A stretch of DNA of 64,000 nt from a virus, in the IMG/VR virus record IMGVR_UViG_3300047174_000111, positions 1 through 64,000 of that record. One strand, 5' to 3'. A program made the position numbers and the translations under genes. Shown here in pieces: positions 3,726 through 26,873 of the stretch (position 1 is the first letter of the stretch; each line of letters opens with the position of its first letter). The notes under the pieces are model-generated. The model searched no databases. It was not told the DNA's origin and worked only from the letters and a program-made list of their open reading frames with translations.

Positions 3726-3766
3726 ATGCCCACGTCCCCCAGGTCCGGTAGAGTTGGGGACTCAAG

Positions 3767-3842
3767 CCCGCCACTTCCGTTGCGAAGTCGCCTGATGAGC
3801 GCAAGCGAAACCGCAAGGTCGCGTAGATCCTCCCAAGGCGGG
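3767..3842 (+). ncRNA. hammerhead-ribozyme-like RNA in the tRNA array
   Basis: All conserved hammerhead core parts occur in the right order: CTGATGA (3792-3798), stem II GC-GCAA-GC (3799-3806), GAA (3807-3809), and stem III ACC-GCAA-GGT (3810-3819), then C at 3820 as the cleavage-site base. Stem I is CGC (3789-3791) with GCG (3821-3823). An outer helix CCCGCC (3767-3772) with GGCGGG (3837-3842) encloses a small ACTTC/GAAGT hairpin. Cleavage is predicted between 3820 and 3821. Stems I and II are short, so activity may depend on the outer structure. It lies just upstream of tRNA-Ser(GCT) and could help process the tRNA precursor. Confidence 0.7.
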
Positions 3843-3870
3843 TTGGTTGGAGGAGCAGGCCGGACCACAC

Positions 3871-3958
3871 GGAGTGCGCAACCGGGCAGGCGCCTGGCGC
3901 GGCCTGCTAAGCCGATGGCCCCTCACGGGGTAGGGTTCGACTCCCTGCCGCTCCGCCA
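3871..3958 (+). tRNA. tRNA-Ser(GCT)
   Basis: GGAGTG pairs with CGCTCC, with G73 and an encoded CCA. The anticodon arm GCGGC/GCCGA has loop CTGCTAA, with a long variable arm (GCCCC/GGGGT). Confidence 0.85.
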
Positions 3959-22555: not shown

Positions 22556-22993
22556 TCAGGCGGCGCCGCGCCGCAGCCACGCATCGAACAGGTGGAAAAG
22601 CGGTTGCGGTAGCTCGCCGCGATACCAGGCGGTGTCGAAACACCAGCTGCCGCCCGGCCATTTGACTTGCGCGATCTCGCGATCGTAGGCGAGGCCGCCC
22701 AGACGTGCGCGCGGGCGGATGCGATGCTCGTAGGCCTCGAAGAACCTGAAGCGTTCGGGCAAGCACTTGCCGTCGCGCTCACTGAAGGCATTCGCGATGC
22801 GCGAGAGCACCGCCTCCGAGGCGTTGGTGATCGACGGCCCCTGATTATCGCGCAGATCGATAATCAGCACCCATGTGACGCCGTCGACGGTGGTGTCGGC
22901 GACGCCGAACGTGGTGGGAAGGCCCGCCGGAGGCATGGCCGTGAGGCGATTGACCTGGATAGCAGGTGGTTCCGTCGTAAGGGTTTGGGTCAT
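22556..22993 (-). CDS. hypothetical protein (145 aa)
   Basis: The middle reads DGVTWVLIIDLRDNQGPSIT and the end RYRGELPQPLFHLFDAWLRR-like (AWYRGELPQPLFHLF), suggesting an alpha/beta fold. Some resemblance of the latter half to phage proteins that report DNA or host state cannot be confirmed. No function assigned. Confidence 0.65.
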   Translation of the reverse strand: MTQTLTTEPPAIQVNRLTAMPPAGLPTTFGVADTTVDGVTWVLIIDLRDNQGPSITNASEAVLSRIANAFSERDGKCLPERFRFFEAYEHRIRPRARLGGLAYDREIAQVKWPGGSWCFDTAWYRGELPQPLFHLFDAWLRRGAA

Positions 22994-23051
22994 TGGTGGC
23001 TCCTCAGGCCGGCGTGACGCCGGCGACCCGGCCGAAACCGGGTTTCGCCTC
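22994..23051 (-). promoter_or_regulatory. intergenic hammerhead-like element 2
   Basis: Transcript sense: GGC-GAAAC, hairpin, GGGTC, stem GCCGGC/GCCGGC, CTGAGGA, GCC. All hammerhead core bases match, and GGC/GCC can form a 3-bp stem II. Predicted cut between 23025 and 23024. Confidence 0.7.
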
Positions 23052-26208: not shown

Positions 26209-26802
26209 TCACGCCGCGAGGCGCAAAGGCTCCTCGGCGCGGGCCGCGACTGCTTGCTCAACAGCTGCGTCCTTTTTCCGCCCGGTTTTCTTGTCGTAGT
26301 CGGCTTTCCAGACGACTGGGTCGGCGTGCTCCGGGTTGACCTTGATCGAGGCCCGCCAGACAGCCCAGACGTCGCGGTCGCGCAGCTCAGGCACAACAGT
26401 GCAGGTCTCCAGCTTCATTTCGAAGCTGCTGATCTCCACGCCATGCGGGATGATGCCGCCCGGCCAGAACTCGGCATGAGGGATGAACTGGTCACGCGGC
26501 ATCCGGATCGTGGTGCCGCGCTCGCTTTTGTAGCTGGCCTGATCCTTCTTCAGCCGCCCCCACCGTCCCGCGTCGCATACCTGTCGGAACATGTAGCGCG
26601 GGCCGTGCCGATTCATCGCGTTGGCTTTCGCGGCGGCGAGCAGCTTGCTGAACAGCTCGCCGCGCGCCATGCGCCGAGGCTTGGCAAACGGTGGCTCGCC
26701 GAGGCTGAGGCCGGCCCTTTCCCGTAACACCGGAGGGCAGTATGGCATCATGTCGGCTATGAGCTGCGCGACCTTCTGGGTCTGCGTCAGTGCTTTGGGC
26801 AT
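26209..26802 (-). CDS. hypothetical protein (197 aa)
   Basis: Start at 26802 chosen for the GAGGAG site in element 9. Basic protein with KLLAAAKANAMNRHGPRYMF and DVWAVWRASIKVNPEHADPV. No known domain recognised. Confidence 0.65.
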   Translation of the reverse strand: MPKALTQTQKVAQLIADMMPYCPPVLRERAGLSLGEPPFAKPRRMARGELFSKLLAAAKANAMNRHGPRYMFRQVCDAGRWGRLKKDQASYKSERGTTIRMPRDQFIPHAEFWPGGIIPHGVEISSFEMKLETCTVVPELRDRDVWAVWRASIKVNPEHADPVVWKADYDKKTGRKKDAAVEQAVAARAEEPLRLAA

Positions 26803-26873
26803 GGTCTTGCTCCTCAGGACCGCGGGATGCGGTCGACCGCCCCTGGCGATGGGGCGGTTTCGGAGCGGAGGCG
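26803..26873 (-). promoter_or_regulatory. intergenic hammerhead-like element 9
   Basis: GCTCC-GAAAC, hairpin ACCGCCCC/GGGGCGGT, C, stem GACCGC/GCGGTC with loop ATCCC, CTGAGGA, GC. Exact heptamer. GCTCC could instead pair with GGAGC and cover the Shine-Dalgarno. Confidence 0.7.

Follow-up and report, generated by a model that had tools for sequence, protein, structure and literature searches.

Positions 3734-3866 (+ strand) of the window, by which we mean the whole analysed stretch of 64,000 nucleotides (positions 1 to 64,000 of the IMG/VR virus record IMGVR_UViG_3300047174_000111), carry a type I hammerhead sequence within a conserved scaffold of two pseudoknots. The best explanation of the whole, to which we give a probability of about 0.7, is a double-pseudoknot RNA with a hammerhead that nicks it, the pseudoknotted fold being retained. 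On this view P2 and PK would form an H-type pseudoknot with the hammerhead placed in its first loop, and P0 and P1 would form another pseudoknot around it. The element RNA would be made within the transcript of the tRNA/ncRNA region and would then fold, and the hammerhead would make a single cut between C3820 and G3821, with a 2',3'-cyclic phosphate on one side and a 5'-OH on the other. P1 (7 bp), P2 (6-8 bp) and stem I each pair sequence 5' of the cut with sequence 3' of it, so that a nicked two-piece RNA is to be expected and not two free RNAs; the nicked product would keep its pseudoknotted fold, within which cleavage would give the conserved GCGUAG/PK segment a free 5'-OH end. The cut is probably a maturation or conformational step, in an RNA that lytic phages probably express together with the tRNA region and temperate phages together with the late region. 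Our best guess is that it is a stable phage RNA that stands alone, comes from a late or tRNA-region transcript and may benefit the phage.

The type I hammerhead core

By every sequence criterion, positions 3789-3823 (+) are confirmed as a type I hammerhead. The full sequence, CGC-CTGATGA-GC(GCAA)GC-GAAA-CC(GCAA)GG-T-C|GCG, is a complete type I core, in which the 5' strand of stem I (CGC, 3789-3791) is followed by CUGAUGA (C3 to A9, 3792-3798), by stem II (GC-GCAA-GC, 3799-3806), which covaries in the family, and by GAAA (3807-3810) with stem III (A3810-U3819 plus CC-GCAA-GG, the two together covering 3807-3819). The predicted cleavage site lies between C17 (3820), an H17 that is C, and G3821. 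The 3' strand of stem I (GCG, 3821-3823) opens the GCGUAG segment at 3821-3826, which is conserved in alignments A1 and A2, and this match has to be read with the knowledge that the searches that recovered most members demanded that very motif. All residues of the invariant core (C3U4G5A6N7G8A9, G12A13A14 and A15.1-U16.1) are present in the window, the pairs adjacent to the core are formed (G3821-C3791 at 1.1-2.1, G3799-C3806 at 10.1-11.1 and A3810-U3819 at 15.1-16.1), and loops close stems II and III while stem I is open, as type I requires.

A preliminary description of this locus had placed CTGATGA, GAAA, GGTC, stems II and III with their GCAA loops and an outer CCCGCC/GGCGGG helix, all of which agree with the sequence. 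It had also read stem I as continuing through the outer helix. The helix exists, but the continuous stem I does not: the proper stem I has only 3 bp and is separated from the helix by a 16-nt hairpin (3773-3788) on one side and by a 13-nt strand (3824-3836), which takes part in a pseudoknot, on the other. The limits then given, 3767-3842, were too small, the core being embedded in a 133-nt RNA. The hairpin between P2 and stem I (ACTTC-CGTTGC-GAAGT) has a counterpart in the related locus L017 (GCTTGC-ATT-GCAAGC), and other members have a short linker instead. Its loop contains UUGC (3780-3783), which in the window is complementary to loop II (GCAA, 3801-3804), and we infer a possible loop-loop contact between the hairpin and loop II.

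A family of double-pseudoknot RNAs

Around the core, P0 pairs GTCCCC (3734-3739) with GGGGAC (3756-3761), and P1 pairs GGTCCGG (3742-3748) with CCGGACC (3860-3866), interleaved with P0 as the first pseudoknot; the joining segment TAGAGTT (3749-3755; alignments A1 and A2) lies between P1a and P0b. P2, the outer helix mentioned above, pairs CCCGCC (3767-3772) with GGCGGG (3837-3842) and may be extended by A3765/G3766, and PK pairs TCCTCC (3828-3833) with GGAGGA (3849-3854), interleaved with P2 as the second pseudoknot. As P0 interleaves P1 and PK interleaves P2, the RNA has two pseudoknots, with P2/PK enclosed by P0/P1. All these strands lie on the + strand and are assigned from the sequence and from pairing in the family; in the window the four helices are perfect and consist of Watson-Crick pairs only. 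The order of elements in the members is P0a, P1a, joining segment, P0b, P2a, linker or hairpin, stem I and hammerhead in the 5' half, then GCGUAG, PKa, P2b, linker, PKb, GUGA and P1b in the 3' half. The window departs from the usual AAGUA (between P1a and P0b) and GUGA (before P1b), having TAGAGTT and GCAGG; L017 has both variants like the window, so that the two form a subfamily.

A tRNA with an intron was considered for the outer part and dropped for lack of a T-arm: no TTCGA T-arm precedes P1b, and no tRNA or tmRNA was called at 3734-3866.

When viral contigs were scanned for the core, the matches were ordinary phage type I hammerheads with a plain stem I of 6 bp (group A) plus L011, L017 and L040, which share the odd surroundings of the window's core. 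Further members came from scans for the core with GCGTAG after it and from BLAST of named phages, and about 50 records with more than 30 distinct sequences were recovered from IMG/VR and named phages. The carriers are phages of Klebsiella (DP01, KlebP_265, UPM 2146, Magnus, MDA2066, 05F01 and BaqKoxi), Escherichia (PD205 and VTCCBPA_322), Pseudomonas (phita81A, 5371, 5399 and PACT201) and Acinetobacter (Highwayman and Acba_21). The strict GCGTAG pattern gave no match in GTDB genomes. The annotated features under the matches are mostly none, with small hypothetical proteins in a few.

In an alignment of 26 members, from which the window was excluded, 92.3% of the helix cells are paired, against 67.7% with shuffled partners and 31-41% with slid partners, counts that are inflated by related rows to an extent bounded by the slid controls. 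The covariation score, 0.670, exceeds those obtained with shuffled (0.200) and slid partners (at most 0.149), and 237 cells are changed on both sides; the structure was chosen by inspecting the same sequences, and the alignment was not fitted to it by a tool. Each helix contributes: P0 is 94.9% paired, with changes on both sides in 5 of 6 pairs, P1 98.3% (7 of 7), P2 82.8% (7 of 7) and PK 90.4% (6 of 6). An earlier search for helices, loosely defined and compared with swapped controls, supported P0 only weakly (p 0.01) because its search regions were badly placed, and the counts from the anchored alignment were substituted. Within the hammerhead, the catalytic residues are invariant across the 26 members, whereas stem II shows covariation and so does a part of stem III; the A-U and the first C-G pair of stem III never vary and the next pair covaries, and position 17 is C, U or A, never G. 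Stem I elsewhere in the family has 5-6 bp (TACGC/GCGTA), with compensated versions in L083 (TATGC/GCATA) and L112 (TACGA/TCGTA).

The preliminary description had called for a covariance-model scan, and this recovered the element. Model R1, derived from the 26-member alignment and thus built without the window, includes nested helices only; it matches 3734-3865 with 46 bits (E 3e-8), the sole match in the 64 kb, and L017 with 39.3 bits. Core-only matches in other loci reach about 41 bits, and much of the 46 bits of the window therefore comes from the hammerhead. At the level of sequence, the scaffold of the window has separate support: all four helices in comparable geometry arise in 8 of 20,000 dinucleotide shuffles of the window flanks, and the window and L017 differ by compensating changes in P0, P1, P2, PK and the extra hairpin that they share.

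Because most searches demanded the core and GCGTAG, we also searched for the P0-AAGUA-P0 pattern, which does not require a hammerhead. These searches found L083 and L112, and also L115, whose core reads CTGAAGA. Two near-identical prophage copies, L082 and L085, retain the whole scaffold with the hammerhead gone (..TCATGACA-ACTGCGTAG-TCCCC..) and score 53 bits (E 3e-9) with R1. The scaffold can thus be kept without the hammerhead, the RNA being about 85 nt long without it and 125-135 nt with it. As one prophage lineage, the only one in which this state is seen, keeps the scaffold alone, it seems reasonable to argue that the scaffold has an independent role. The hammerhead is nevertheless usual in the family and probably functional.

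Pair 10.1-11.1 is non-standard (C.A, A.A or U.U) in 12 of the 26 aligned members, and members with such a pair include L062-L064, L067, L068, L072-L076, L078, L087 and L090; the mispair may slow cleavage. Another segment, in L081 just before tRNA-Gly(TCC), reads GATACC..AAGTAGGTATCC and shows P0 pairing with no recognisable hammerhead or PK (11.2 bits with R1); it is perhaps a chance match or a distant hammerhead-less form.

Genomic context and alternative readings

The source genome is a 96,571-base IMG/VR virus record with a terminase, a portal and a Mu F-like protein, and no near match to this phage was found among GenBank phages. The region around the element is non-coding by content, with 13 tRNA genes upstream. 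Downstream come tRNA-Ser(GCT) (3871-3954, +; 43.1 bits with the tRNA-Sec model, anticodon GCT read from the sequence, missed by ARAGORN) and genes for tRNA-Thr, Tyr, Ile, Lys and Pro. The nearest relatives at the protein level, L048 and L049, lack both the element and tRNAs over the stretch examined.

The preliminary description had suggested that two hammerhead formats occur in this genome, and this holds, since besides the type I it has a type II hammerhead, at 22991-23050, that scores above the Rfam cut-off. Our own descriptor finds nine type II-like sites in the window. At least eight such elements lie between 23000 and 28800 on the - strand (e.g., 22991-23050 and 26800-26865), directly upstream of ORFs, and their core, CUGAGGAG or its equivalent, coincides in part with the likely Shine-Dalgarno sequence, 14-17 nt before the ATG; their cleavage or folding could control the start of translation. 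No ATG is close to the ninth site (37011).

Other RNAs are found near members of the family or beside phage tRNAs. The tRNA-side hammerheads of groups C and D (L028 and L036; L051, L054, L056, L058 and L066) are other RNAs. Among these, L054, L056 and L058 have a second large structured RNA with a type I hammerhead (GCGGARTTGCCCC..GGGGAATAACTGGCAAY..), located in L056 between two tRNAs, and in L051 and L066 the 3' part of that large RNA precedes the hammerhead, as in a circular permutation. Sub-threshold matches to permuted tmRNA occur in L073, L075, L076 and L077, and tmRNA-like genes precede the element by a few hundred nt in L074 (tag ANDNTFLAVA*) and L076 (tag ANDDVVLMAA*). Matches to the STnc100 sRNA family, at or above the Rfam cut-off, are located about 1.2-1.4 kb downstream of the element in the Taipeivirus genomes L074, L075 and L079 and fall in long non-coding stretches. 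A recurring ncRNA-like segment with GTGGTGAATGCGCAGGCTGATGCGC and CCGGAGATCAGCACCGGCCACC lies beside the element in L067, L073-L075, L088, L102 and L040.

Could the scaffold be a cis-acting leader of late transcripts, acting in antitermination or stability, with the hammerhead resetting the 5' end of the downstream RNA? This would fit the temperate context. In L062, L082, L085, L086 and L090 the element lies 144-270 nt after a gene for a Q-like antiterminator, and it also follows a Q antiterminator gene in the E. coli prophage L110; in temperate members, holin/lysozyme (lysis) or packaging genes are found downstream, with no tRNA, and intrinsic terminator-like hairpins stand 3' of the element in L082 and L086. 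In L011 and L017 the element precedes small terminase genes, and in L092 the large terminase gene. However, lytic members carry the element inside tRNA regions or after them, without the Q-lysis gene order, and no promoter-like site was found near the element, one weak match in L086 being within expectation. We consider a leader function unlikely as the explanation of the whole family.

On a par with it, and equally unlikely in our view, is that the copy in the window has decayed or misfolds and is barely active, if at all. Its weak points are a stem I of only 3 bp, a stem II of 2 bp and divergent joining segments, and decay is known from the E. coli prophage copy L110, which has GAAG in place of GAAA (a decayed prophage copy occurs in 2 of 5,426 E. 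coli genomes). The minimum free energy fold of 3734-3866 (-53.3 kcal/mol) differs from the proposed fold, the nested part of which amounts to -31.5 kcal/mol, with about -10 from P0 and about -9 from PK in addition before loop costs. As the lowest-energy fold is not the proposed one, this GC-rich copy may misfold; free folding of 3760-3850 gives no support either (z -0.20), and both results weigh against our preferred explanation too. Against decay, the core residues are intact, G10.1-C11.1 is paired, the four scaffold helices are perfect, and the extra hairpin common to the window and L017 covaries.

Slightly less probable again is the role that the preliminary description had favoured, namely a processing site at which a polycistronic tRNA transcript would be cut between the upstream block and tRNA-Ser(GCT). 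The element does sit between the 13 tRNA genes and tRNA-Ser, 4 nt from the latter, the same order being found in Klebsiella phage DP01 with a gap of 6 nt, and all neighbouring tRNAs at the 36 member loci are on the same strand as the element. Yet a tRNA lies within 2.5 kb at only about 10 of the 36 loci and none does at about 26, the former being a lower bound as several loci are short. Moreover, the conserved P1 and P2, together with stem I, would keep the two halves joined, and 50 nt separate the predicted cut at 3820 from the tRNA. RNase P generates tRNA 5' ends, and that of tRNA-Ser would come from it in any case. Because it leaves the tRNA-less members and the conserved helices across the cut unexplained, the separation of tRNA precursors is not supported, although the type I hammerhead and the two formats in the same description are.

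A chance hammerhead-like sequence is very improbable and in practice refuted by the family: the bare CTGATGA..GAAA pattern is not rare (34 of 100 shuffles), but in 64 kb, both strands counted, chance would produce the full descriptor (stem II of at least 2 bp, A-U plus stem III of at least 3 bp, H17, stem I of at least 3 bp) 0.013 times and its compact form 0.001 times, as estimated on 328 Mb of third-order Markov sequence, while the window has exactly one match and the whole element is independently recovered by model R1.

Going beyond the self-nicking double-pseudoknot RNA, it is tempting to hypothesize a new class of phage ncRNA in which a nested double pseudoknot recruits a hammerhead and the resulting two-piece RNA works in infection, the hammerhead being a module for maturation that can be lost, while the function lies elsewhere. 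Such a class would span unrelated lytic and temperate phages, with expression from the late or tRNA region; we would give this broader proposal even odds.

Relation to known hammerheads and phage RNAs

Hammerheads in phages are already known (PMC3088659, PMC6155905), and why prokaryotes carry them is an open question (PMC6155905). The present hammerhead belongs to a defined and conserved scaffold, found in named phages of Klebsiella, Escherichia, Pseudomonas and Acinetobacter that can be cultured; natural copies lack the hammerhead, so that its removal offers a test of what the cut does. The bacterial and phage type I hammerheads of Perreault et al. 2011 (PMC3088659) have the same CUGANGA, GAAA, U16.1 and H17, with stems II and III closed and stem I open, and a phage intergenic location. 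Ordinary phage type I hammerheads (group A) lie immediately before an ORF and have a simple stem I of 6 bp, whereas the element described here has a conserved double pseudoknot; the pseudoknot reported in PMC3088659 joins stems I and II, whereas both pseudoknots are here outside the ribozyme. The filter of that study rejects any mispair at 10.1-11.1, which, given the mispairs in 12 of 26 members, may be one reason why the group was overlooked. The hammerheads of PaP3 and Bcep176 are phage hammerheads already tested in the same paper, and R1 finds no member in either genome (best match 10.3 bits, partial, E 3.7).

The core aligns with the Rfam families Hammerhead_HH9 (RF02275) and Hammerhead_3 (RF00008). 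Rfam does not call the window hammerhead, which scores 14.7 bits with HH9 against a cut-off of 52; L059 scores 23.4 and L078 23.8 against 48.5. When the window and the member loci were scanned with Rfam release 15, nothing reached the gathering cut-off for the element, and RAGATH candidate RNAs were compared as far as that release includes them. The scaffold is thus a structured RNA family absent from Rfam and located mostly in stretches without an annotated gene. GOLLD and ROOL are large non-coding RNAs beside phage tRNA clusters. The element resembles them in being non-coding and beside such clusters, but its length is about 85 nt, or 125-135 nt with the hammerhead, and no Rfam match to GOLLD or ROOL occurs in the window or the member loci. 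A hammerhead inside this particular double-pseudoknot RNA is new in that it is absent from Rfam 15 and from the open-licence full text searched, while subscription journals or supplements may hold a description. There is a likeness in architecture with HRIMA-1 among the non-circularly permuted hammerheads (PMC10085705), which also combines a hammerhead with two pseudoknots; those of HRIMA-1 lie in a permuted core, whereas the element described here has a normal type I core.
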